DNA from: Symbiodinium natans
Taxonomy: Eukaryota > Sar > Dinophyceae > Suessiales > Symbiodiniaceae
Assembly: GCA_905221605.1 (NCBI GenBank)
Contig: CAJNDS010000415.1
Coordinates: 1-64,000 of the forward strand
DNA length: 64,000 nt
Reading direction: 5' to 3'
Shown here: positions 18,720-45,860 of the stretch, in pieces
Position numbering within the stretch: the stretch's first letter is position 1
Layout of the letters: each line of letters opens with the position of its first letter
Translations under genes and position numbers: made by a program
The notes under the pieces: model-generated
Seen by the model: only the letters and a program-made list of their open reading frames with translations
Told to the model about the DNA's origin: nothing
Database searches by the model: none

Positions 18720-19366
18720 CGGCTTGCAGAATGCAGGGCTTTCTCGGCGGCGCCAACAAGCCACGTCCCAGAGAACCCCCCGTCGTGGAGATTTTGGGCC
18801 TCCTTTTGACCAGGGGGGCCCGTTAGTGTCCCCGCCTAAACCCTCAGCAGCCAGTTGCCTGAGTTTGGCTTCTCTCTTTGTCCATCCGAGAGTCAATGGA
18901 CTGAGTGCACAGTGGGATCTTAAGTCATATCACATATAGCAACTGTAAGCAGCCGGAGTCAGTCCAGTCCGTGCAGTATGGATTTTGTGTTTGGCAGAGA
19001 AGAATCGAGTCGTTTGCTATGGCCTAGGTATTACTGGTGTATGGAGCACAGCGTGTGTGTGGAAAATGTATGTAAACCAAAGACGTGCAATAGAAAGTTT
19101 TGAAGATTTTAAGGTTTTTAAACCCTAAACCCTTCTGCCATAAATAATAATGTTTGTGACTGTGACGATGGCAGCCGTGGTGTAGACCTACAGAAAGGAA
19201 GCAGATATAATAAGTCATATATAACCTAACACCCAGAACTCAATCATGCTTGATTGCTTTTAAAAGGACAAGAGTTATGTGGTGATTCTTTTTTTTTCAC
19301 GAGCCGTGCAGGTCAGGCTCCATAGCACTGTAGCCTCTGAGGACCACAAGCTCCCGGTTCCGAGCC
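18720..19366. other. Divergent interval between the minus-strand kinase and the plus-strand gene block
   Basis: Direction of coding switches from minus to plus across this interval. It should contain the missing 5' exons of the kinase gene, but I could not recognise a glycine loop or VAIK-type segment. There is a two-unit CCCTAAA remnant near 19122 and a T9 run at 19288. Confidence 0.35.
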
Positions 19367-19516
19367 ATGCCCCGTGAAGATAATCGCAGCAGGTCCAGGT
19401 CGCCTCCCCGAATTCAAGCCAGAATGTGGTGGCGATGGTGCTGGATCAAGCTCGAGGAGAATGGCACCGTGCTATGGAAGTGGACTTGGTGGTACGATCC
19501 AAGAGACTCTGGCTAG
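19367..19516 (+). CDS. 49-residue SR-dipeptide and tryptophan-rich small protein
   Basis: This is a short complete frame. The N-terminus (MPREDNRSRSRSPPR) has the Arg-Ser dipeptides of SR-type nuclear proteins. The C-terminal half packs eight Trp into about 24 residues (MWWRWCWIKLEENGTVLWKW then TWWYDP) and ends with SG-stop. An in-frame TAG at 19331 bounds it upstream, and the ATG follows 'gag|cc', the same AG-cc-ATG arrangement as another gene of this block (22803). It is the first frame of the plus-strand block, about 280 bp before the first hairpin element. The composition is too odd to be a random frame but too short for family assignment. It could also be the first exon of a longer protein. 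Confidence 0.45.
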   Translation: MPREDNRSRSRSPPRIQARMWWRWCWIKLEENGTVLWKWTWWYDPRDSG

Positions 19517-19760
19517 TGATGCTTAGCATTTAGCATTCAGAGATCTGAAGATCCGTGGAATAGCTCCATCGAGTCACTAATTCATTTTACCCCAGTCAGT
19601 GTGGGTACTGCCAGTCAAAGATACGAGCGAGCGACTAAATCTTTGTAGAAGATATCGCTTTTTTCTCTGAGTCTTTCGACAAGTTTGCAGAGAAGCAAAA
19701 GACTATCCTTTTCTGGATCACATTCCATTCAGAATGTAGCATAGGAGAATTAAGATATTG

Positions 19761-19873
19761 CATGCCACTGCTGGGAGACGAGAGCAGTGTGATGTCTGGG
19801 CGGGACCTGAAAAGGGCCCGCCCAGAAATGGCAGGACCAGCAATGGGCCTGCCAGGCCGTGCTGTTGGAGTGG
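19761..19873 (+). other. Hairpin element copy 1 (structured spacer element)
   Basis: Three stem-loops in a row: 19766-19789 (CACTGCT/AGCAGTG), 19795-19826 (a perfect 10-bp stem TCTGGGCGGG/CCCGCCCAGA around the loop ACCTGAAAAGGG), and 19829-19854 (TGGCAGG/CCTGCCA). The middle loop and the block GGACCAG-AATGG-C...CCAGG-C-TGCT are shared with copy 2, while the stem bases differ and still pair. It lies 215 bp upstream of the RGG-like gene start. Role unknown; an RNA structure is the natural reading. Confidence 0.7.
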
Positions 19874-20087
19874 AGGGGGAGGGTGGGGGTGCAGCCGTTG
19901 TTTATTTGAGCCATGCATGTCATGTGAGCCGTCGAGACTTTAGGGCGTCATTTTCAGTCTGGCCAGTAGTGCACAGGCCAAGAGCATTGCCAGTCGGAAG
20001 TCTGCAACCTGTGAGCCGGCGATGCCGAAGGCGGCCCAAGGCCAGTTGTAGACTAGGAGCCGTTTGCTGAGCTTTTCGGCTGTGCAG

Positions 20088-21784
20088 ATGGCGAAGAGAA
20101 GCGGGGCCGAGAAGAAGAGTGCCCGGAAAAAAAGTTGGGAGCTGAAGCACCTGAAGAAGAAGCTGAAGAAGGAGAAGAAGAAAAGGCGAGCTGCCAAGAA
20201 GAAGGCGAAGAAGGAGACCTGCAGCTCTTCGTCGTCGACGTCGACGACCTCCAGCAGCTTCCAGGACCAGCCCAGCAACAGACGGAGGGCAGAAGGGCGG
20301 GCTGGCAGGGGAGAAGAAGTGCCCTCTAGCAGCCGAGATGGCGGCAATGTCCAGTGGCGAGGAAGCCAGAATTGGAGCCGTGGGCAAACGTGGCATTCCG
20401 AGAGGGGCAGAGGCTGGGACCAGCACGGTTACGGCTCCAGCAGTGGCCGTGCTGCTGATGGACAAGGAGGAAGAGGAAGCCAGCACCAGTCTGGAGGCCG
20501 TAATGCCAACAACAGTGGTGGTGGTGGTGGTGGCGGCTGGCAGAGAAGTGACTGGAGCCGACGATCGAATTGGTGGTCGTCGAGCAACCGCCAGTCCAGT
20601 GGTGATGGCGGTGGTGGCGGCTGGGGAAGAAGGTGGAGAGACTTTCAATGCTGCAGCTGCCACTCCGGTACCCGCCCCAGCAGGCGAAGGAGTCATGCCG
20701 AATGCAGGGGGCAATGCCGGCCCGGTTGCGGAGACGGTGCATGTTGAAGAGATAGCGACCCCGGCAGAAGATGATGCTGCAGCTACGGGCCCGGCGGCAG
20801 CAGTCCCCAAAGCTGTGATCCCGAAAGCTCCGGCGGCATTGCCGAAGTCCCCTCCTCCTCCGGAGCTGCTCGAGGCAGTGGCTGCCATGCCGAAGTTGCC
20901 GGCAGCTGGAGCTCCGACTGTGGCAGTGAAAGCTCCGCCGGTTGCTTGGAGCTCATGGCAAAGTTGTATGTTAGACATGCCATTTGTGGTTGTAGTTGCT
21001 GTTGTTGCCAGAGTGAAAAAGCAGCACCCAGGTTCCACTGCTTTCTCCTTCGGTTCCTCGGCATGCGATTACAAACTTGGTCTATCCTCTGCAAGAGCTT
21101 CAAACACTAGAGCAGGTATTGGCCTGGCAGCGATGGATTAACTCGGGACCTACACAACCTCAAATCCTCAGTGAAGTCCAAGAATTTGTTCGTTGCAACA
21201 GGAACAGTCCGCTTTTCGTCTGCTCCAATCAAACCGAGGAAGTCAGCTGCCCGCTACCTGCGTGTTTGATATGTCTATCCAGCTCTTGGATATGCTGTCA
21301 GCCAACCCGGCGGCGTCTGCTGGTTTTGGAGAACGGGCACTTGCTCGAATGTGGCCACGGGCCATTCCACGCCGAATGCCTCAGGCGTATGGTGGCATCG
21401 TCCCGGCCATCATCGCCAACCTGTCCGATTTGTCGAGCCGAAGTGAGCCCAGCCTGGGCTGGCAACATCATGACAGGAGCAGCTCGAGACCTGCCGAAGT
21501 TCGTCCTTGCAGAGGCAGCAAATCCACAGGTGCCCGGCAGGGGCATGGGCGTCCGGTTGCCCCCTCGGGACGACAGCCTGCCGGCAGCATCCATGGAAGG
21601 CACAACTTCCTCGGCGGCAACTGGGGCCGGAAGCAGCAGACCGCCGCCTGAGCCCGCCTCTGGAAGTGGGAGATTAGAAGAAGAAGCCGATGATGCTGCA
21701 GGTGCTGGTGGTGCGGCAGCTGTTGTGTTTGGCCCTTCTCCCCGACCGGAGGGCTTTGAAAGCCCGGAGGAGGCAGATGAGTGA
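20088..21784 (+). CDS. Lys-rich / RGG-like protein ending in a RING-H2 finger (frame changes internally)
   Basis: The start is the ATG directly after 'ggctgtgcag|', a clear acceptor-like context. Residues 1-50 are Lys/Arg-rich (AKRSGAEKKSARKKSWELK and KKLKKEKKKRRAAKKKAKKE), then a Ser tract, then a Gly/Ser/Arg/Trp low-complexity region (WSRGQTWHSERGRGWDQHGY) like RNA-binding RGG regions. Near 20640-20700 the sensible frame moves to an Ala/Pro-rich one (EEIATPAEDDAAATGPAAAV), and after about 21025 to a third frame carrying a RING-H2 finger: CLIC, then CGH, then FHAEC, then CPIC, all eight ligands present. The second change fits a short intron ending near 21024-21031; the first has no clean intron and may be an unrecognised one, a frameshift, or separate overlapping genes. 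A nuclear RNA-binding or ubiquitin-ligase role is an inference. Confidence 0.6.
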
Positions 21785-22802
21785 GCCTAGGCTCCAAACC
21801 GGAGCAAAGCTCTGCCGGGCATGCCTTCGCTTGAAATCAAAGCCGAAACCTCAGAGGTGTGCGGCTTCTAGGGCTCAGGGTTAAAGATGCAGGCTGCAGA
21901 TATGTGGCTTTAGGCCTGAAAGTTTGGGACCAGCAGGTCTGAACACAGGTTCTTGCAAGTGTGAGGTAAGTCCTGTAATCTAAGCCCGAAAGCAGAAAGC
22001 GAAAGGCTGGCCTGTAGCTGCCCTGCCGGAGGCAGGATGAAGCTTGATATAAGAGTTGCAGCTTGACGACTGTGAGTTTTTCAGCTGCAGATGTGTTTCA
22101 CGAACGAAGTGCGAAATTCGGTCAACGAAGTCCAGATCAGATCTTTTGCAAAAGTCGCTAAAAAAACTTCAAGAGAGCCGAGCCAGGAAGCCTGCTGCAG
22201 ATGTTGTGGGGTGTCTGTGTGTGTTTGTGCGACACAGGAGTTGCACTTGCAGCAGTCGGAGCTTCTTGCTGTGTGCTGCTTTACAAGCGAAGCGAATGTT
22301 GCAGTCTTAAATTCGCGAGTCTTCCACCTTGCAAATAGGTTCCTTTGGAGCAAGAAGGGAGCCCTGTGGGTCAGTGGGAGGGTGTGGGGGGACCTGCAAA
22401 GGTCCCCCCACTGAGGGACCAGGAATGGTCTCTCCAGGGCATGCTTCTGGTGTGGACTGCTGTGAAGGCACACATTTGATTTTTCACGATTTTGCGACAA
22501 GGGGTTTTCAGTTGTCCACAGTTTTGTTTGCAAGCATCTTCCTCGAAACAATGCATCTGTAGCTTGCAAGCACATGTCAATGTCAGGCCAGAGAAGTTTA
22601 AGCTGACGGATGCTGCTCTCTTTCAGACAAGACAGACAACGAAACCGAGATATGCATTTCAAGTGAAGTGGAGCTGCCTGCACTTTCGCGTCTGCTTCTT
22701 TCGTTCACAGGCAGTCTCCGTGTGCATGGAGCAATGTTTTTGCAGCCTTTTCTCTTTCAATCTCTGCTTGAGCAGTCACAGTGCCTCGTTCCTGCAACAG
22801 CC
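21785..22802 (+). other. Spacer between the RING gene and the small NLS gene
   Basis: It holds hairpin element copy 2. A plus frame at 22091-22414 (107 codons, Cys-rich) has no family resemblance and I do not call it. The last 60 bp before 22803 are pyrimidine-rich and end in 'gcaacag|cc' before the ATG. Confidence 0.4.
22369..22455 (+). other. Hairpin element copy 2
   Basis: A perfect 12-bp stem, GTGGGGGGACCT/AGGTCCCCCCAC, closes on a GCAA tetraloop (22384-22411). It is followed by a second stem-loop (GGGACCA...TGGTCTC). It shares GGTCAGTGGGAGGG upstream with copy 3 and the GGACCAG-AATGG / CCAGG / TGCT block downstream with copy 1. Confidence 0.75.
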
Positions 22803-23066
22803 ATGGAGCAGACACCGCCTGCGAAGAAAAGGCCAGCTCCTTTTGACACTCCTCCACGACTAGAACCAAAGCGACGGCGAGTGGATCAGGAATGTCAGAG
22901 GCTGCAAGAATCGCTGCGACTGACCCTGCTGAACTTCTTGGATTTCGCAGAAGCAATGGCCAGGGAGGCTTTGGCTGGGCTAGCTGAGGAGCCACGAGAT
23001 GAAACCAATCCAGATGATGCCGAGACAGTTGTTCTGGAGCCTGAGGCAGAGAGCAGCAGCGACTAG
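22803..23066 (+). CDS. 87-residue protein with nuclear-localisation-type basic clusters and acidic tail
   Basis: The start was chosen at the ATG two bases after 'ctgcaacag', a probable spliced-leader acceptor; the frame is open for 45 more codons upstream, but that part is Cys/Phe-rich and less plausible. The N-terminus has two basic clusters, PPAKKRPAPF and EPKRRRVDQ, fitting a bipartite or SV40-like nuclear signal. An amphipathic helix follows (RLQESLRLTLLNFLDFAEAM), and the C-terminus is acidic (DETNPDDAETV, then EPEAESSSD). It looks like a small nuclear adaptor. It lies 260 bp upstream of the large two-exon gene in the same direction. No family recognised. Confidence 0.6.
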   Translation: MEQTPPAKKRPAPFDTPPRLEPKRRRVDQECQRLQESLRLTLLNFLDFAEAMAREALAGLAEEPRDETNPDDAETVVLEPEAESSSD

Positions 23067-23322
23067 GCGTTTGCAGTTTTGATGCGTTTGCCAAGCAGTC
23101 TGTGTTCGTATGTCTTGCCAGAACTGCCGAGCCGAGCTTTGTGCCTGCAGAGCGGAAAGAGAGCGATGACAAACTCATGCTTGAAGGCTGCTTTGTGTAT
23201 ATGCCTACTTCACAGGGCGATTGCACTGCTGCAGCTTGTGAGTGAGAATGTGCAAGCGCTTTCCGGTGCATGCCTTGCTTGACAGCCAGAAGCTTTTGCA
23301 TAGTCCCGGTGTTGTTTTTGTC

Positions 23323-23324
23323 AG
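23323..23324 (+). promoter_or_regulatory. Probable spliced-leader acceptor for the large two-exon gene
   Basis: 'gttgtttttgtcag|ctgATG': a T-rich tract and AG three bases before the ATG at 23328. Comparable AGs precede 20088 (immediately) and 22803 (two bases). In dinoflagellates mRNAs receive a trans-spliced leader at such sites; this is inferred from context only. Confidence 0.5.
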
Positions 23325-23327
23325 CTG

Positions 23328-26300
23328 ATGTCTGATTTCCTTTCTAAAAAGTTGCTTCAGGTGAAAAGAAAAAAAATCAGGCAACAGAATGAAGGAAGAC
23401 TTAGGGTGCTGCGAGCCTCGCGGGAAGGCATCATGTCTGCGAAGCCATGGGCAATGTTCCACTTCGTAGGACGAGGAGAGCGACAGGAAAGTTGCAGACT
23501 GCTGCTTTTTGACAGAAAGCTGAAATTGCAGAATTGTTCGACTGGCGAGCTTCTCGAGCTTCCGGATGGTGCCGAAGTGAGCCCGGAAGAGTGTTCAGTC
23601 CTGCTGCCTCCTAAGGAGGACGAGCAGGATGCAAGCACAGTTCCTCTGCAGGATTTTTTTCAGATGTCCCTGGGGACAGACGAGGACGGAGAATGCAGTG
23701 TGCTCAAAGAAGGCAAGACCTTGACCTCCTGGGAAGCTTTGAAAGGTGCCAGAGACACCGTGGCCCTGGAGTTTCGGCTGCTGACAGAGAAACCCGTCAA
23801 GTGGCAGACAGAGTGCTACCTCTTTCACGTCCCCCTGTGCCAAGTTCCAGCGTCATCCGTGAGATTTCCCCTGCGACGGTTCATTGATGCTTTGGGTGGG
23901 GCCAAGAGAAAGAATTTCATCGGGGGCTCGATCAATACTTGGCGAAGTTTCGTTCAGAAGCATTTCGTGCTTCGTGCCCCGGACGACGAAGAGCAGGAAG
24001 CATGTCAGCACATCAGCAAATCTTCCTGGAGCGGCCTGATGCGATCTGCAAAGAAGAGAAAGCAGGGAGAGGAGCAAGAAGAGGCGGGGGAGCAGTACGA
24101 GGCTCACTGTTCCGTATTCGCCTTGCTGGCCCTACTGAGCAGTTTCGCCGTCTCGCTTCGTTCCACCAGTTCCTGGAATCTGCCTGACCAGATCGTGAGC
24201 GACAAAGCAAGAAGCATGCTAAAGGCACTCCTGTGGCATTTTCTCGACAAGGAATTTTCCAGGGAAGCGGATGTAGAGGAAGACGGAGTCGATTTCGTGG
24301 TGGAGTGGCGAAAGGTAGAGGGGCAGGTCATGCTGAATTGGCACAAACTCTGCGAGAGCGAACAGTGCTTGGTGAAGATGTTTCCGAAAGAGGAGGAAGA
24401 GATCGAGCTGACGAGAGCCCTGCTGCGACTGCGAGAGCAGGAGAGCAGCAACCGAGTAAGTGCTGGAAGACGACGTGGCTGCAAGGAGCTGCTGTCCTTC
24501 TTGTTCCTGGTGCTGTCCGATTGCGTGGAAGCCAGTCTGAGATCAAAGCTTTGGTGCGAGACAAGGGTCGAGCAGTTGGTGCAGCTGAGGACAGCAACCG
24601 AAGTTGTTTTGTGTACGTGTGTGCCCAGCTTTGTGTTTGAATGTCCTGACCTAAAAACAAGGACAGCACGTGGCTACAGGCGAGTGTCTTGGGGTTTCCG
24701 AGAAGCCATCGTTGACAAGACAAAAAATGCGAACATGCAAGGCACGAGCACCGTGGAAGCAGCTCAGGAAATCATGGTCGAGGGCCGAGCAGCAACACGA
24801 TCTCACAGAGGAGATCGCTTTCTCAGGCCTGAGAGGTACAACTACCTCAAGGCCGGAGAAGAGTTGATGAAGGACTGCTCTCTGGTCAGCCTCGCTGCCG
24901 ATGCTGTCAGTGTTGGCAGCGACCACATTCTGAATTGCTTCCTGTGGCACCCGCTGCAGAAGAAGGCGGTTCACTGCCCACCTCAGGTGCTTGGCTGAGC
25001 ATAAGCGACTGTTGCATGTGTTTTCAGTATCATTGAGGGAGAGGTGTCTACATTAGAGAGGAGCGAACCTCCGGGAGAGCGTCTCCTTTTTGAGACTTTT
25101 CCCTGGGCAGAGCCACGGGCAGCACGCCTCTTTTTGTAGGAAAAAACGAGGCAAAAAGTCTCGCGAAGACAAGGTTTGGGAGCTCAAATATTTTCAGCCC
25201 TTGGCCTCTGGGACCGCGCCTCCAAGTCGGTCAGCCTCTCCCAGCACGCCTCCGCTTCGGCGAGGCTTCGCCTTTAAGTTTTACTTTACAGAGGAGTTTC
25301 GGGGTCCAGGGTTTGCAGCCCTGAGCCTGTGGGACCACGCCTCTTTTAGCACGTTTTCACCAGGCAAAAAGCCTCGTAAAAAAGTAGGTTTTTTCCATCG
25401 GTTTTCGTGCCCTTTTGGTTGCTTAGCCTCTGGCAGCGCGCCTCCTGTCAGCGAGCAAAAAGCTTGCTTGGCAGGCAAACAGAATAGAAGGAAGAAGGTA
25501 GAGAAACAAGAGAGGCAGACAAGCAAAAGCACAGAAGACAGACTTGTTTTGCTCCTGCAGAAGTAAGAAAACAGCGAGGTGCAGAAGCAGCTGAAGACAT
25601 ATGATCTCTTCCAAGAGGACGGCGCCTTGTGGACAGGCAAGACAGCAGAATTCATGAAGAAACGGGAAGACGAGACTCGAGAAAACAAAGCTCGAAGGCT
25701 CCGTGTCAAAACAGAGTCAAAGGACCGACTCCCCACCTTCATGTGGATGCAGTGCGTGCAGGCTTCTTTGAGGTCAGTCGGCTTGAAGTTCCAGGACTTC
25801 GTGGAAGTGGCGACATCGGAGAGAGCCGGAGGCTCCATGCCAAGAACCCTCGTGGTGGCAACGGACCAAGAAGCATTGCAGATAACAGCCATGAACTTCC
25901 TGAAACATCATCGAAAGCTGTGCAGTATTCACATTTACGATCCGATGCACCGGCGACAGAACGATACGATTCTCGCTTTGGGCGAGTCAGGATGCCTGAG
26001 GAGAGCATCCATGAACCTCAGCCTGTACAACATCAAATTTGGGCCCTGGCTGAAGGGTGGCTGGTTCCGTCAGTTGCAAGAAACAGGGGAGAAGTTGAGG
26101 CAGATGCAGCCCAACGACCCCCTCCTCATGCACTTCTGGCCAGAAATCCTCAAGGACAGAGCCTTCCTGTTGGAGGACTCTCAGGAAGGCCGGAAGTTGT
26201 TCTTGGCCACATTGAGGAGCCAGCAATTCCTGACAAGCAAGGGTCCCAAAGCATCCCTGAGCAAGTTCAATGCTTTTAGCGAGGCCCACCGACTCCTTGA

Positions 26301-28632
26301 CGAGCATTGGTCATCGCAGGCGTTCGTGATGACGGCGACATGCTTGCTTCAGGGCTGGGTCTCCTATGCAGATCAACTGTGGTGCCCAGAGGAGTGCATT
26401 GGTCAGCTTGGTGAAGCATCGACCAGCAGAAATACTGCAAAAAAGGAGGCCAAGGCTGCCCTGGACAAGATGCGAAATGCATCTGTGAACAGCCTGCACA
26501 GCATGACCAAGTACATCAACGATGCCGAGGTGAAGCTGGAGAGCCGTCTCATTGCTGCAGTTCTCGCACCCGAGTCCAAGGCAGCTGCACAGATGCTGGT
26601 GGACATGCGGGGGCCCGAGCAGACCCTGGCTTACTTTGTGTCCTGGGCCGAAGGTGGCTGGCTTGAGACAGCCTGCGAGCATCTGGGACTGCTTGAGGAC
26701 CTGGCAAGCTTGAACAGAATCGGCTTCCACATGCAGTGGACAGAGGTGCCCGGCGAAGGACAGCTGGAGTACGAGAGGGCCACCACCGAGAACCTGTTTT
26801 CCTTCCTCAAGAGCCTCCTGAAGTATAGAGCCGGGAGTAACCTGTGGCACACTTGCGGACAGGGGGCCTGTGCCGGCTTGCTTTCAGACGAACCGGCCTT
26901 GCTCCAGTCGAGGCTTCTGTGGTTCAAGGAGATTTGCGAAGCTGAAGAAGAGGTCAAACAGACAGGGAACCTGGCTGCACAAAACTTGCTGAAAGACAGC
27001 ATGCTTCAGGAGATTTTTCAGCAAAACGTGATTCGATTCCTTAAAGAGGAAGGTTTTGCCAGGGTTGCTCCGAAACTGGAGGAAGTCCTTCAAGCTACTT
27101 TCTCCTCCTTGCTCAACACGAAATTGGTTGAAGATGCGAACAAGTTTCAGCGTGAAAAAGAAGACCGAGGAAACAACTCCAAGACAGTTTCCATGGCTGA
27201 GGCTTGGCACACCGTTTCGCAGCACAAAGTGCTGGAGTCCTACAGCAGAGAGGAAGTAAGGGCAAGCAAGAACTGGAGGGTTCCGGCAAGCTGGAGCATT
27301 GAGGACATCTGCAGGGAAAATGTCCGACGAACAGAGAACAAGACTATGGCTGAGAAAGCCGACTTCGACTTCCTGAGCCGGGTGACAGGGCAAGTCTCCT
27401 GGCCATCCTTTACTCCCGAGACAGAGCAGAGGCTGATTTGCAACCTGGCCCTGCTGGTGCACATCCACAAGTTGGGCAAGAAGTGGGACATGGCCGAGAA
27501 AGCGTGGCTGTCAGGCCTGGTGCAAACAGGCTCTGTGCTGCAATGGCAGGAGAAGCCGCACTATGTCGTCCGAACATATCCCCAGGGCTTGCTTTTGTGG
27601 CCCCTGCTGGAGACAGGAGACAACAGGCTCGTGTTTCAGAAGCCCTTAAAGAAGCTGGTTTGGGGCTTCGTTTTTTCCTTGGAGAAGTGCAAGATACAGC
27701 TGCTGACACCCTGTGCTCCCATGGAGGCCGTGCGAGGGCAAAAAGCGGGCATTCAACTGGTGGGAGGAGCCTGGCAGCCGCTGCTGCAGAATCTCATGGA
27801 CAGTGGCTTCAAAGGCATGAATGAGTCCCAGTTGAAGAAGCTGAATTGTCTGTTGGGGCACGAGGAGCCAGAGGCCCAGCAAGAGAACCAGGAAGTCGCA
27901 CTGGCTGTGCACTTGCTGGTCAACGAGGATCCCACATTGACCGAAAAAGATGTCCTGGATAGAATTGAAGTTCGCAACACAGAGCGTGATTTCCCTGTGG
28001 AAGGCATGACAGAAGAGCTGGCCGATGTCATCAAGGACACTCTTCGAGTCCAGGACCAGGAGAAGATCATCAACAACCTGAAGAAAAAGGCAGCTGCACC
28101 GAGCAAGGTGGCCGAGTGGGCCAAGGCAAGCTATCAGAAGTCGTACGACAAGATTCCCATGGAGAAGGTGCAAGCTGCTATCTTGCAGAAGCAAAAAAAA
28201 GAAAAGGAATCGACACAGAGGAAGGGGTCCAAGCGAAAGGAAGTGGAGAACAGCGAAGTCGAAAAGAAGACCCAGATCAGAAAGTATGCGAAGAGGGACC
28301 AGGACGTCGACAAGCAGCTGCACCTGCACCTGCCCCCGGACGTCGCTTGTGACACGGACGACGACAATGGTCGTTGGAGATTGACACACAAGCTCAAGGG
28401 AGCCAAGCGGCAGAAGAGTCTCAGCTGGACCATGGCCGGCCACAGTCAAGCTGCAGCAGCTGCACTGTTGCAGGCGTTCAAATGGCACAAGGAACAAACC
28501 GGAGAAGACATGCCTGTGAAGACACAGAAGCTCGTCGATAAGTGGCAGAATGTTTCTACCTCGGCAAGCAGACCTCAGAGCTCGTTGGTGGCGCCTGAAC
28601 TCAGCAGCTCCTCCAAATCAAGAGCCCCGTAG
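23328..28632 (+). CDS. 1,570-residue protein with a DDE-transposase-like acidic pattern, two exons
   Basis: Exon 1 is 23328-24986 and exon 2 is 25579-28632, joined in phase 0 (CAG|GTG...GAG|GTG). Neither exon is complete alone: exon 1 runs only four codons into the intron before a stop, and exon 2 has no ATG at its start. Three conserved-looking acidic blocks straddle the junction: SLAADAVSVGSDHILNCFLW (about residue 520), LVVATDQEALQ with IHIYDPMHRRQND (about 645-680), and ATTENLFSFLKSLLKYRAGS (Glu near 957). The spacing D, then D with a His-containing segment, then a long insert, then E in a helix resembles RNase-H-fold DDE transposases. The N-terminus is basic (VKRKKIRQQN) and the C-terminus has Lys-rich nuclear-signal clusters (QRKGSKRKEVE). 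It is by far the longest frame here. The transposase reading is an inference; it could be another large nuclear protein. Confidence 0.6.
24987..25578 (+). other. 592-bp intron flanked by a 6-bp direct repeat and holding degenerate ~100-bp repeats
   Basis: The donor context is CTC-AGGTGC-TTGG and the acceptor context CG-AGGTGC-AG, so AGGTGC is present at both ends and the intron can be read as an insertion with target duplication. Inside, a GC-rich box (GGGACCGCGCCTCC-like) recurs at about 25117, 25209, 25330 and 25429, each followed by an A- or T-rich stretch rich in GAGGCnnnnnGCCTC-type pieces. Removing it joins the two parts of the large protein in frame. Confidence 0.7.
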
Positions 28633-29354
28633 TTCTTGCTAAACACCGGTGCAAGAAAGGCGAAGTTTTCCAGGAGAAGACAAAATGATGAGCCTTTGCA
28701 GACAGCCCGGTTTTTCATCATGTTTCATGACAACTTTCACATGGAAGGCGAAGCTTGCCCAACCTTGCGAGGCTCGGAAGCTGCAGAGGTAGACAGCTGT
28801 GTAGTGCATATTTTGTCATGTCTTTGGTTTCCATGAAAGAGACTTCCTTTCGAGTCCGGCTTTGGCTGGAAGTGCACCATGAGTCGGATCACTTTCGTCT
28901 GCTTGCCTTTCGAAGAGCCCTAGCCCGAGACCGAAACCTGGCGGGCGTGTTGCAGCACACGAAAACCCTCGCCAGAGTCGCTTCCTGCGACTTAACGATC
29001 TTGCTGACCTTGCGACCTGCGAGTACAGCTTGGAAAGACATTCTGGAGGACCTTGTAGAGGGCAGCCTCTTCCACTGAGAGAGGCCTGTGTCAACAAAGT
29101 CCTAGGAAGTTTGTGAAGCTTCAGCTGCCAGGCGGAGACTTGCTGAAAATAGTAAAGAAGGAGCAGCAGTCGTGGAAATTGCTTGCTTTAGCTTTCACAA
29201 GTGCCACATTGTGCAGTGCCGAATTGCAGTTTTGTGCTGCGAAACGTGGCCAGTCATGTGCCTGGAAGAGAACTTACTTGGCCTCTTGTCCTTGCAGGCT
29301 ATTTTGTAGTAGGAACTTTTCCCGGCCCTCTTTGTCCCGACCCAAACTTGTGCC
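28633..29354 (+). other. Spacer between the large two-exon gene and the basic 307-residue gene
   Basis: A plus frame (28755-29078) is open but Arg/Leu-rich without domain character; I do not call it. An acceptor-like 'tgtccttgcag' lies near 29297, about 55 bp before the next ATG. Confidence 0.35.
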
Positions 29355-30278
29355 ATGGTGGCCTCGTCCAAGCAGGCGAGGAAGATGGCGAGCAGCAAGA
29401 AAGCCACGAAGGTTCAGATGCGAGAGCAGAAGAAGAAACAGCGAGAGCAGAAGCAGACGGTGAAACAGCAGACCAAGGCGGCCGGCAAGCTAAGAAAAGT
29501 CATGCAGCACTACGACGCCAACAGCCACAAAGTGGACAGAGACTACATTGTGGAGATGCTGGAGGCGAATCCCAGTTGGGTGGCGAAGCTTGCTTCTGTC
29601 ATCAGGCAAGGGGGCATGAAGATCCTCATGGAGTTGGAGCAGAACGATCAGGACCAGACGGCAGGCCTGGACTTCGGTGCGAAGTGGAAGGGCAGGAATG
29701 TGAAGACTTTGATGGCCATGCCACAGCAAGTCATGGAGAACATGATCATGGCGACCTTGAAAGAGGATACCGTGTGGCCCACAGACAAGACACAATTGTG
29801 GTGGCAAGCCGCATTCCGGTACCAGATGCACTGCACCGACGACACACCCTTGCCCTATGACAAGATGAACCGCTACGTCATGGTCATGGAAGAATATGCA
29901 AGAATGAGGGTGGCAGCCATTGGCAACAGGCTGGAGGGTTTGAAAAAGAAGTTCGAGACCCTGACCTTGCAGGACTTTGAGATCTACCACATTCATGACC
30001 CAGCGACGAATGTCGAGTTCGGAGATAAAAAGGATGATCCCTGTGTGCTGAAGAACTTGCTTACGAACGAGGAGTACGAGTTGCCGGCCTTGAAGAAGCA
30101 CCAGGGTGCCTGGACACTGCAGAATGCCAATGATCCTGACACGTTGATCACAGCAAAAGACTGTCCTCTGCAATTCAGGGCTGTGGATTACTTCCCTCGC
30201 ATGCCCAAGGCAAGCGAGAAGTGGGGCTATCTTGTAGATGCTGCACAGGTGGCCAAGGCACAATTGGCAGGAGAGTAG
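29355..30278 (+). CDS. 307-residue basic protein of the plus-strand block
   Basis: This is an intact single-exon frame beginning MVASSKQARKMASSKKATK. Residues 10-50 form a Lys/Gln/Arg-rich helix (QMREQKKKQREQKQTVKQQ) that could bind nucleic acid. A mixed alpha-helical middle follows (DYIVEMLEANPSWVAKLASV, then MEEYARMRVAAIGNRLEGL), and the C-terminal third is beta-like with Cys and Asp (DPATNVEFGDKKDDPCVLKN). There is no signal peptide or membrane segment. The family is unknown to me. It follows the DDE-like gene by 720 bp on the same strand, and hairpin copy 3 lies 600 bp downstream. Codon choice and long frame length match the other members of the block and differ from the short-exon genes around it. 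Confidence 0.65.
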   Translation: MVASSKQARKMASSKKATKVQMREQKKKQREQKQTVKQQTKAAGKLRKVMQHYDANSHKVDRDYIVEMLEANPSWVAKLASVIRQGGMKILMELEQNDQDQTAGLDFGAKWKGRNVKTLMAMPQQVMENMIMATLKEDTVWPTDKTQLWWQAAFRYQMHCTDDTPLPYDKMNRYVMVMEEYARMRVAAIGNRLEGLKKKFETLTLQDFEIYHIHDPATNVEFGDKKDDPCVLKNLLTNEEYELPALKKHQGAWTLQNANDPDTLITAKDCPLQFRAVDYFPRMPKASEKWGYLVDAAQVAKAQLAGE

Positions 30279-30870
30279 ATCCGTTACCAAAGTTCCTACC
30301 ACGAGCATGGTGAAGTCCTGCTACTTACAAGCCCTCAGACCAAGAACTTCTCTCTGTTGCTTCGGGGTGCGGGGTAGGGGAAAACTGCCAGAAGCGGAAG
30401 CCTGGTCAAGAGGTAGACTTCTTTTGTTTTCACTTCACGAAATTTCGCGAGGGGTTCGCGCGCAGCAGCTGGAACAAAAGGTTGGCCTGAAGTCACATGT
30501 TTGCAGTAGAACCTTGAAACTGTGTGCTTCTTTGAAAACCTTCAGACCCACAGTTAATGCAAATCTTCTTGGTTAAAGACTTGCCCAGCAAAGCAAGACT
30601 GATTGTGGTCGAAGACTCATACTCGTCTGCAAGGGTCAGTGAACGGTTGACTGAAGCCTCAGGCCTTTTTTGTTTTGGGGATTTAACCCCAGCTCCACAT
30701 TGAGTGGCACATCGTATATGCTTTTTGTACTTCGCGAGACCTCGCTTTGTCAGCAAGGAATGCCAGGGAAAAACGATCAAAGCATTACTGAGCAAAAAGG
30801 CTTTGCTCAGCCTGTTCAGAGATTTCATCCTCCTGCAAAAACAACAAGATCGTAAAGTGCGAAGCCTCAG

Positions 30871-30996
30871 ATGCAAGTGTGCCTCATGGGGACTTGGAAA
30901 AGGCCCCATGAGGCACACGAAAAGCTTGGGGGTCAGTGGGAGGGAAACAGGGGACCTGCTACAGGGGCCCCTGTTCCAAGCTGACGAAAGTCTCGC
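30871..30996 (+). other. Hairpin element copy 3 (double hairpin)
   Basis: The first stem-loop is a perfect 15-bp stem GTGTGCCTCATGGGG/CCCCATGAGGCACAC with loop ACTTGGAAAAGG (30877-30918). The second pairs ACAGGGG with CCCCTGT (30947-30974) around ACCTGCTACAGG and includes the perfect palindrome ACAGGGGCCCCTGT. It shares GGTCAGTGGGAGGG and GGGGACCTGC with copy 2, and the GGGACYTG-AAAAGG core with copies 1 and 2. Confidence 0.75.
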
Positions 30997-31053
30997 CAGG
31001 TCCTATGACGAGAACTAAGTCTGTGAGGAATTGCTTTATCAGCATTTTCTGTC

Positions 31054-31422
31054 ATGGCAGTGATTCGGAAGCAACAGCAGCCATTGCACGACACATGCTG
31101 TTCACTGTTTGTTAATCTTCCGTTTGCAAGTTATGCTGGTAGACATGTCATGTGGCGAAAACTGCCTCGCCGTCTTCGAATTTGTTGCCAAGATGAGGAA
31201 GACAAAATCGCTATTTGCCTAAAGTATCCAATCGACAAGGTCAAGGGATCCCACTTGCAGCTGCAAAGGCAAGCTCGAGTCAAAGTCACAGGAGGATCGC
31301 TTTCGGTGAAAAACTTGCAGCAAGAAACATCCCTCGCTTGCATGCTCGGGCCTTTTTTCGGGCAATGTGAGGCAAACATATGGGCAAGTGAGCAGTTCAC
31401 ACAGATGAAGAGACTTCACTGA
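31054..31422 (+). CDS. Possible 122-residue protein at the end of the plus-strand block
   Basis: The frame is complete, and 'gctttatcag' lies 12 bp before the ATG. The protein is basic in its middle (MWRKLPRRLRICCQDEEDK, QLQRQARVKV) and Cys-containing, without a recognised domain. It may be a genuine last gene of the block or a chance frame. Confidence 0.25.
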   Translation: MAVIRKQQQPLHDTCCSLFVNLPFASYAGRHVMWRKLPRRLRICCQDEEDKIAICLKYPIDKVKGSHLQLQRQARVKVTGGSLSVKNLQQETSLACMLGPFFGQCEANIWASEQFTQMKRLH

Positions 31423-31429
31423 CACGTCT

Positions 31430-33812
31430 TCATCCGAAACATTAGAGTCCCAAGTTTGAGTAGATGCGAAAACACTGAACTTGTGATGGAATGTTTTTTC
31501 GCATAAATCATAGCAGCTCATTTGTTTTTCAATTCTGCTTTAAGAGAATAAAAAAATGTACCCTGCAGTAAAAACATATCATGGCCAAGGAACTAAAGAC
31601 AACAAAGCAAGGAAGCAAATGCTTCATCCTTGCAGATGAAGTGGTCAGTCCCAAACTTCCTTCCTGCCTTCCTGTACCGAAGTGTTTTCCCTTCTCTCAA
31701 AGCCTTCCGTGCCCAAACAACAAAACGGGCAACTGGCAACACACAAAACCAGGGCAGAAATCTGGGGGACCACGCGTTCTCTGGGACGGGGCTTGTTGGC
31801 AACACCGACTTTCGGTTTTTGTTTTATCTCCAGAGGCCTTGACTTATCTTGGCTATAGGGGAGTTGAAAGGTTGTGTCTGCACATCTGCTGGTACCCATG
31901 TCACAAGGTGGCTCCTTGTGGATGAAGCCGTGCGCATGAAGCTCCCCAACTGCCTTAGGAACTGAGGGGTGCAGGCATGAACCTTCATGTGGGCTACGAC
32001 CTCCCCCTGGTGCCTGTTGAGGTGAGAGGTGAGATCGTGTGTCATACGCAAAGACACCCTGACAGCGACTCTGGCCACCAATCCACCGGATGGCCACCTA
32101 TCCTGGTGGCTCACACTGCGAAAATTTCACGTTTCAAGGCAATCACACCTAGCTTCACTCGTTTTCCGGCTGGATGCCTCAATCACTGCCTTGAGGGTCT
32201 GGGGCCTGCCATGTCATCCCTGTTGGTCAAAGCTCCCCTCCGCTCTGGTTGCAGATCCGGCTTCGGACGTTCACACAAAAACCTGCGTCGGGGGCGAGTG
32301 AACCTCAATGCCCCAGCTCATGATGGCCTTGGTATGGTACACTTGCGTGCCGAGGGGCGGTTAGAAGCTCTCTGAGCACCTCCTTGGCCTCGTGCTGCAA
32401 GAATGAAGATACTTCAGGGCTTTGATGGGCTTAGGGCCCGCGCGGCAAAACATGGAGCACCAAGGGGCACTCTTACCAGCCGATCAAGGCAAATGCACTG
32501 CTAATGAAGGTAATCAACTCAAGAGGACTGACGCGTACAGAGCCTGTGACTCCCAGCCCGAGCCTGTCATATCTCTCATTCGTTTGCTTGCCTCTCAAAT
32601 TTCCACATGACCTCAACTTCTCAATAAGAGCCCGAGAAGCCAAACACCTGTAACCCCAGACAGCCGCAATCTCTCTCCCAAAAAACCCTGTGAGCCCGCC
32701 TCGTGGGGAGGCAATCGTCGCTCAGGTGCCTTGAACGGGGGAGGGGGGGTGGGGGGTGGTTCCTATATTTTCCCATTCGAGTAGGGGCCTGTTTTAGCCC
32801 TCTAGGCAGACTCAACAACCTACTTGGATCACAGCAGAGCGTTGGGCTCGCTCTCTGCGTAAATCGCTAGCACCGAAAGAACTTCTTTTGCCCTCGCAGA
32901 GAAATGCTGAGGGCTTTCTTTGGTTGAGGTTTCTCAGGTCTTGCTAGTCGAGCTTCCTCTCAGGCTTCTGTTGTTGAGTCGCTCCGTCGCACTCAACCTC
33001 TTCCAACAAGTAGCCAGATTTTCAGACACCATCGACATCCACCGTACCGACCGCAAGTCACAAACAAGAACTCGAGAGCGTGCAGCAGCTGCCCACTGTC
33101 CCATCGAATGTTTTCGACTCACCCTGCAGCAGGCGGCGCAGTGAACGGGGCCCCGTGTCATTTGTGCGGAGCATGTCAAGTGGATCAGGTGCTGCTTGAG
33201 CTTCTTCGGGCAAACTTGAGGCTCGCAACACCCACGTTTCCAGGGCATCTGTCGAAATCAAGTTCTTTCAGACATGGGTGTTTGTACAAAAACAACCTCA
33301 TGTAACCTGGGGTTACCGGGGATGTCGAAACGACAACAATCCCGTACTGCTTCCACATGCAAGCAGTGAAGTTGGTTGAAATTAGGACTCCAAGAGACTC
33401 CAAGGTTCTTGGAACATTCGTGTTGTGAGAACCAAGGGCAACGGCTGAGGGCCCCTGCGCCTGAGAGGCACTCGTAGAGGTCGCAACCTGCAGCCCGCCA
33501 AAAATTCGACGCAGACTTATATCTGCTCACCTGCACGTTAATCTGCTTATCTTCCGAGAGCCCGAAAGATCAGAATGTCTGCTTGTGACAGCCTGCATCA
33601 ATGTGAAGTTCTGTGCTCTGGTGAAGGGCTTGTGCCTCCCGCACGCTCCATCACCACATAGTACGCCCTGCTGTCCTGCGCAAGGCGCTCGACGAATGCG
33701 CGACTTTGCAGGATGTACGGGATGTACGTGGATATACGTTGAATTGCCTTATAACGCGCCATCCGATGTCCCATCGTGATGGATATAATATACAATCCTA
33801 CACTACACGATG
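31430..33812. other. Interval with no supportable gene
   Basis: A minus-strand stretch near 31930-32000 contains LHAHGFIHK, reminiscent of a kinase catalytic loop, but it overlaps another plausible frame and has no partner exons, so I do not call it. There is a GGGGGAGGGGGGGTGGGG run near 32740. Coding direction appears to change from plus to minus (convergent) in this interval. Confidence 0.35.
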
Positions 33813-45760: not shown

Positions 45761-45860
45761 CTTGGGATATGCCCCCTTATACGAACAGTCCTTAGTAGGG
45801 ATTATAGTACCCCGATTATAGTCCCTATTAAGGACTGTTATTATAGGGGGGAACATCCAA
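45761..45860. mobile_element. Fold-back element, complete copy (family also at 51726-51800)
   Basis: The two arms of about 47 bp are imperfect reverse complements; the core AACAGTCCTTA (45784-45794) pairs with TAAGGACTGTT (45829-45839), and TAGGGATTATAG pairs with TATAGTCCCTA. The outer parts (TGCCCCCTTATACG / ATAATAGGGGGGAACATCC) also match. A second, diverged copy of the arm lies inverted at 51726-51800. Confidence 0.7.

Follow-up and report, generated by a model that had tools for sequence, protein, structure and literature searches.

Hairpins with a conserved tip at three matching positions in two subfamilies of a Symbiodinium natans DNA transposon: probable control signals, possibly acting as RNA

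A 64,000-nt stretch of the Symbiodinium natans genome (GenBank assembly GCA_905221605.1, contig CAJNDS010000415.1, positions 1 to 64,000 of the forward strand; hereafter the window) raises the question of what three similar hairpin elements, here termed E1, E2 and E3, are doing in the spacers of a single block of long reading frames. An earlier sequence-only reading had described the three as homologous, and all of them are present at the places and with the stem lengths it had given. It had also located them correctly in the spacers of the block, while missing that the block itself is a DNA transposon of 13,065 bp (18744-31808). E1-E3 are not free-standing; they are parts of this transposon, and their family is not dispersed through the genome. 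As judged from sequence comparison, tip-bearing hairpins occupy the equal three positions in two transposon subfamilies with proteins about 36-54% identical, and since these positions are kept in a distant cousin despite the changed surrounding letters, the hairpins are probably working control signals.

The elements share the + strand with the main frames; they span 19766-19854 (E1), 22369-22438 (E2) and 30877-31000 (E3), and together comprise six main hairpins. Five of these share a tip of the form A-CCW/CTT-GNAA-complement-K, the sixth (W3b) being a variant, while the stems are otherwise unrelated; the common anatomy is a G-rich 5' arm, A, CCT/CCA/CTT, the GNAA loop, the complement AGG/TGG/AAG, G or T, and the 3' arm. 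E1 and E2 are hairpin doublets running into CCAGG. E1 opens with a leading hairpin of 7 bp whose loop lacks the conserved tip (19766-19789), followed by W1a (19795-19826; 10 bp outer plus 3; tip ACCT-GAAA-AGGG) and W1b (19829-19854; 7+3 bp; tip ACCA-GCAA-TGGG), the latter overlapping CCAGG. In E2, W2a (22384-22411; 12 bp; tip ACCT-GCAA-AGGT) is followed by W2b (22413-22434; tip ACCA-GGAA-TGGT), which again overlaps CCAGG. E3 consists of a long hairpin, W3a (30877-30918; 15 bp plus 3; tip ACTT-GGAA-AAGG), then GGTCAGTGGGAGGG, then W3b (30948-30973) with the irregular tip ACCT-GCTAC-AGGGG. The word GGTCAGTGGGAGGG occurs exactly only at 22369 and 30931; it is A-box-like, and a tRNA-derived origin was considered and set aside, no tRNA being found. 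Folding z-scores are -6.0 for E1, -4.1 for E2 and -6.1 for E3, with none of 300 shuffles equally stable, the second half of E3 folding weakly when taken alone (z -1.9; 10 of 200 shuffles equally stable). The exact tip pattern has three matches in the 64 kb, all inside E1-E3, and with up to three mismatches there are seven against 2.5 expected, a number reached by one of 100 shuffles; five of the seven lie in E hairpins, one is the complement of W2a and one lies elsewhere. A covariance model of nine hairpins (R1), from which W3b was left out, recovers in the window five + strand hairpins and one match on the complement of W2a; W3b is found at E=0.0013, and W2b, which overlaps the W2a match, has no separate entry. 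No described family had come to mind when the elements were first read, and indeed no Rfam family exceeds its gathering score in the 64 kb; over 19741-22480, with E values up to 10 admitted, nine matches appear, none at cut-off, the best being blv_FSE on the minus strand with 22 bits against a cut-off of 34.

The limits of the transposon follow from an inverted repeat that pairs 18744-18808 with 31744-31808 in a repeat scan of the window. Its outer 33 bp form the terminal inverted repeats (left, 18744-18776, + strand; right, 31776-31808, minus strand), which start with TCGG, end with CCGA and are alike at 29 of 33 positions, with weaker similarity continuing up to 18808. The 5-bp direct repeat CTTTC adjoins each end (18739-18743 and 31809-31813), a target-site duplication seen in this one copy. 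A second copy in the same genome, on contig C1993, matches 28531-31808 at 88% identity, its homology ending at 31808; the right ends of the copies on C1938 and C2086 carry related repeats, and no further left end was seen among the transposon copies examined. The stretch thus displays terminal inverted repeats, a target-site duplication and several copies with a common end, as DNA transposons do, and the label transposase is derived from these features. The whole is a complete-looking transposon with unclassified transposase-like frames and a RING-like gene, and the genome holds relatives as distant as 24% identity.

Further evidence on the hairpins comes from a diverged relative on the minus strand of contig C1938, whose identity to the window is 50-54% in the frame P0002, 44% in P0004 (36% for one piece) and 40% in the RING part of gene A. 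In this copy the E1 doublet spans 416818-416771 and precedes the gene A ATG by 219 nt (234 nt in the window), E2 lies at 414177-414150, before the frame P0001, and E3 at 397718-397691, after P0004. The leader from E1 to the ATG is unalignable between the window and C1938, the local score of 15 being reached by 189 of 200 shuffles. Upstream of E1, 1,211 bases of the C1938 copy are given as N, which hides its left end. To avoid circularity, a second covariance model (R2) was built solely from five window hairpins; over 90.8 kb of relatives, E values of 0.0005 to 0.002 go to its top five matches, namely the three C1938 places and the counterparts of W3a in C1993 and C1526, and the sixth-ranked, a C-rich palindrome in C1993 with E 0.018, is unrelated. 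The hairpins are hence not confined to the elements first described but recur in C1938 and in other transposon copies, so that the outcome by which the sequence-only reading would have been refuted, a genome search returning these copies alone, did not arise; the genome-wide pattern scans and DNA searches gave no convincing copy outside the transposon family.

Conserved loops with compensatory stem changes, the hallmark to which that reading had pointed, are likewise recovered. Across the nine hairpins, a sample biased in that it was chosen partly because they fold, both partners vary in 8 of 11 base pairs, and covariation scores 0.578, compared with 0.191 in shuffled alignments (none of 500 reach 0.578) and at most 0.206 when the partner is slid; the count of further pair types was equalled by 25 of 500 shuffles. 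A less biased comparison is offered by three near-identical E3 copies, where three W3a substitutions each leave a G.U pair. That the elements are a neutral by-product, local duplications with chance inverted repeats kept by shared descent, may be suggested by the longer words (GGTCAGTGGGAGGG) that some elements within one copy share, but is very improbable and largely contradicted, since the covariation exceeds shuffles and slides alike and the tip and its pairing are kept where the leader sequence is lost. In the stems as delimited by us, W3b left out, the wobble-type non-Watson-Crick positions on the + strand are G.T in six cases (five events) and A.C in none, the sole other stem mismatch being the outermost G.A in W1a. 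The sense strand folds better than the antisense strand in 11 of 12 hairpins (three of them near-identical), the exception being W3b. Taken together, wobble pairs and strand folding weakly favour a sense RNA. The closing pair is U-A in seven of nine tips and A-U in two, and the loop is GNAA in five of the six window hairpins and GNNNAA in all four C1938 tips.

Two of the elements are further combined with a G-quadruplex motif. At E2 and E3, in both the window and C1938, such a motif overlaps a hairpin and its last G-tract is the 5' arm of that hairpin; in the window these are GGGTCAGTGGGAGGGTGTGGGGGG (22368-22391, + strand), ending in the 5' arm of W2a, and GGGGGTCAGTGGGAGGGAAACAGGGG (30928-30953, + strand), ending in that of W3b. 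The + strand of the block holds three such motifs, the third in gene A, against a Markov mean of 0.14 and a maximum of 2 in 200 simulations, and in the two pieces of the C1938 sense strand that were scanned the only two motifs are those at E2 and E3. As both structures use one G-run, quadruplex and hairpin are mutually exclusive.

A cis-acting RNA element is favoured by a position kept while the leader sequence is lost, by compensated stems, by a conserved GNRA-type tip and by the bias towards the sense strand. We tentatively propose, at a little short of an even chance, that E1-E3 act in cis as RNA hairpins and that a basic protein of the transposon recognises them, much as phage N recognises boxB. 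In the sense transcript the tip would fold as a GNRA or GNRA-like loop and be bound by a basic transposon protein, for which the lysine/arginine-rich N-terminus of gene A would be the first candidate and P0004 the second. As leader elements, E1 and E2 may by such binding control how gene A and the transposase are expressed, with E3 marking the end of the last transcription unit, and the G-tracts, in competing with the hairpin for one G-run, would provide an on/off switch. The change from GNAA to GNNNAA loops between the subfamilies would in turn represent a co-change with the binding protein. A wider notion, possible although doubtful, is that of a private hairpin code marking the transcription units of the transposon, consisting of repeated RNA hairpins, a G-quadruplex switch at two of three sites and the transposon's own basic protein as reader, with code and reader diverging in step from one subfamily to the other (GNAA versus GNNNAA).

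Several observations weigh against an RNA signal of this kind. No element is located between P0002 and P0004, E1 is without a G-quadruplex motif, and gene A, a single open frame in C1938, is spread over three frames in the window copy. The C1938 elements are only moderately more stable in folding than shuffles (z -2.9, -2.8 and -2.2), the E2 stretch as cut there favours another fold, and the C1938 copy is not intact, P0002 being interrupted by about 9 kb and carrying a stop there. W3b of C1993 has lost a tip pair through a single change. The loop difference between the subfamilies yields a Fisher p of 0.048 with hairpins of one copy counted as independent, and could be due to homogenisation within a copy. 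Moreover, the copies on C2086 and C2398 have open P0004 frames and long open P0002 frames (with a stop only in the last part) while their E3 is destroyed, and no such hairpin was found in the spans of C2086 and C2398 examined. That these copies survive with a destroyed E3 implies that the persistence of a copy does not strictly depend on the elements.

The same rearranged copies also bear on a role in DNA. C2086 and C2398, which represent one event, are near-identical to C1938 after P0004, and their E3 switches just after GGGGACCTGA to a duplicated downstream piece. In C1526 the window-type sequence ends after GGGGACCT (ACCT) of W3b and is followed by DNA that adjoins the transposon end in C2086/C2398, while C1046 has a 5' part of C1938 type that ends within the 3' arm of the E1 hairpin. 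These three breaks inside E hairpins, and the placement of the elements on either side of gene A and of the transposase/P0004 unit, are consistent with DNA-level elements, in which palindromes and G-quadruplex extrude as single-strand or cruciform structures for transposon recombination or replication and delimit gene cassettes. This is an unlikely explanation, though one to be reckoned with: other breakpoints (the left one in C1526 and several in C1993) lie away from hairpins, the three junctions have no common joining rule, palindromes are fragile in general, and wobble pairs in one strand's sense suit RNA better than duplex DNA. Since C1046 was itself found by the hairpin search, no probability is put on the hairpin breakpoints. 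The suggestion that the elements form a functional RNA or a structure-dependent DNA site is partly borne out: the positions kept in C1938 support a function, for which RNA is the likelier form, and the three copies that break within hairpins fit a DNA structure or plain palindrome fragility. The same right flank is present in C1526, C2086 and C2398 beside two transposon subfamilies, suggesting recombination or conversion between subfamilies, at one locus or at duplicated loci. In addition, C2398, C2086 and C1046 contain long inverted repeats arranged in arrays, inside or beside the transposon copies; these repeats consist of TTTGAATAG or TAGTTTAGA units, and many of them have stems of 30-40 bp.

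Placed before, between and after the presumed units, and forming strong sense-strand hairpins in the window, the elements could alternatively serve as transcript processing or 3'-end/boundary signals, each hairpin being cut, or protecting an end, in a multi-gene transcript. This is distinctly improbable, given that the gap between P0002 and P0004 lacks one, that in the window the distances from element to frame are 234 nt (E1), 370 to 870 nt (E2) and 599 nt (E3), that no T run follows the elements as judged by eye, and that the conserved tip exceeds the needs of a processing stem.

How far the hairpins extend beyond the transposon was followed genome-wide by pattern scans and DNA searches, the covariance models being run on the window and on fetched stretches. 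A loose tip pattern has 232+227 matches in the genome against 24+30 in the control, and these were rejected as a dispersed family since, among the matches listed, they are mostly an unrelated palindrome, GGGACCAGTACTGGTCCC; this perfect 18-bp palindrome occurs in about forty of the places listed and is apparently part of an unrelated repeat. A stricter pattern has 12 matches against 2 in the control, five in two transposon copies, four in one unrelated repeat and three unsupported. With one mismatch, a six-loop pattern has 26 matches against 3 for a control pattern that holds CpG and is poorly matched, so that the excess is not interpretable from it; three of the matches are in C1938 and one, in C1046, is a true E1 homologue. 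Of the sites with this pattern, 20 were inspected, C1046 included and C2330 and C2378 left out; the 19 others have 0-3 extra outer pairs, as does C1978:701901. When these 19 and C1978:701901 were compared by BLAST with C1993, the C2086 3' piece, the C1938 pieces and the block in the window, only telomere-like repeats, the tip itself or an 18-base match emerged. CCCTAAA-type repeats were also seen. R1 E-values at loci chosen by pattern (including L018, L019 and L064) were discounted. A DNA search with 19700-22480 returned 14 matches, and apart from the window itself none of them extends over E1 or E2. Independent small mobile hairpin elements, similar to double-hairpin elements and inserted three times, would account for several similar copies in one place, but are scarcely credible and already contradicted by the equal three positions in the diverged C1938 and by the lack of a convincing copy outside the transposon family among the 12 and 26 pattern matches, the DNA search likewise giving no other E1/E2 place.

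In more distant relatives of the transposon (34-39% identity), R1 has no match in 34.8 kb of stretches from C191, C1897, C1941 and C1767, which cover part of their spacers and differ in gene order. Hairpins of the form GTCCTGCAAGGAG...CTCCTGGCAGGGC in C191 were considered as a parallel set and rejected, one lying inside a P0001-like frame and the other looking like its fragment copy. A different 69-nt hairpin (-40 kcal/mol) is identical in three distant relatives (L060:250-318, L063:414-482 and L070:640-708), about 1.1-1.2 kb after the matched P0002 part. A pattern scan of viral sequences gave no match to the G-box plus tip, and among the papers listed by literature searches no description of such hairpins in a dinoflagellate transposon was found, as judged by titles and abstract openings.

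The frames themselves are arranged as follows, all on the + strand. Gene A (20088-21784) has a basic N-terminus (MAKRSGAEKK...), opening with a lysine/arginine-rich stretch in both the window copy and C1938, and a RING-like C-terminus with RING matches below the Pfam cut-off. P0001 (23304-24998) and P0002 (25567-28632; 1021 aa) look like one gene in two parts, the presumed transposase, because their order is kept in C1938. P0004 (29313-30278), which also has a basic N-terminus, travels with P0002. None of P0001, P0002 and P0004 reaches a Pfam cut-off, no solved structure in the PDB matches P0002, and a pattern-based search gave no viral relatives of P0002. In the genome, a search with P0002, in which 45 of 52 candidates were scored, gave 30 rows (the window's own included and several contigs repeated) with 100 to 24% identity, some with long open frames. 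In C191 and C1897 the P0004 homologue lies upstream of the transposase rather than downstream, gene order being shuffled between subfamilies. The strongest tight-loop hairpin met when the window was scanned, a 94-nt inverted repeat of -59 kcal/mol, lies outside the transposon at 45765-45858.

Accounts of DNA transposons usually confine themselves to the ends and a transposase. Conserved, co-changing hairpins around the main units would, if true, mean an internal control of transposon expression or movement, in a lineage with poorly understood gene regulation, and the hairpins offer a small and concrete binding experiment. Cut-and-paste DNA transposons with 5-bp target duplications exist, for instance Transib, and the present transposon is like them in its terminal inverted repeats, its 5-bp duplication and its long frames in several copies, while differing in having proteins without a Pfam or PDB match and internal hairpin sets. 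Double hairpin elements, known from the plastid minicircles of Adenoides eludens and from some mitochondria as dispersed copies of variable position, share with E1-E3 two neighbouring hairpins, variable stems and a location in non-coding DNA; here, instead, they belong to a nuclear-type transposon, with fixed positions, a conserved tip and no dispersed copies found. The introner elements of Amoebophrya with inverted repeats (PMC7789003) are introns with direct repeats at the splice borders, and are comparable as hairpins in dinoflagellate non-coding DNA, whereas E1-E3 are internal elements of a 13-kb transposon. The parallel drawn for the proposed RNA hairpins is the boxB/N system of lambdoid phages, where the arginine-rich N protein favours GNRNA loops that adopt the GNRA fold and depends on a U-A closing pair (PMC12027372). 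The differences are a eukaryote-type genome, loops of 4 or 6 nt versus 5, doubled hairpins and an additional G-quadruplex, the binding here being a prediction, and because no loop is a GNRNA pentaloop the hairpins are boxB-like at most, not boxB. The likeness would lie in the short stem, the GNRA or GNRA-like loop, the U-A closing pair in seven of nine tips, the sites in leaders and a basic protein encoded by the same element.

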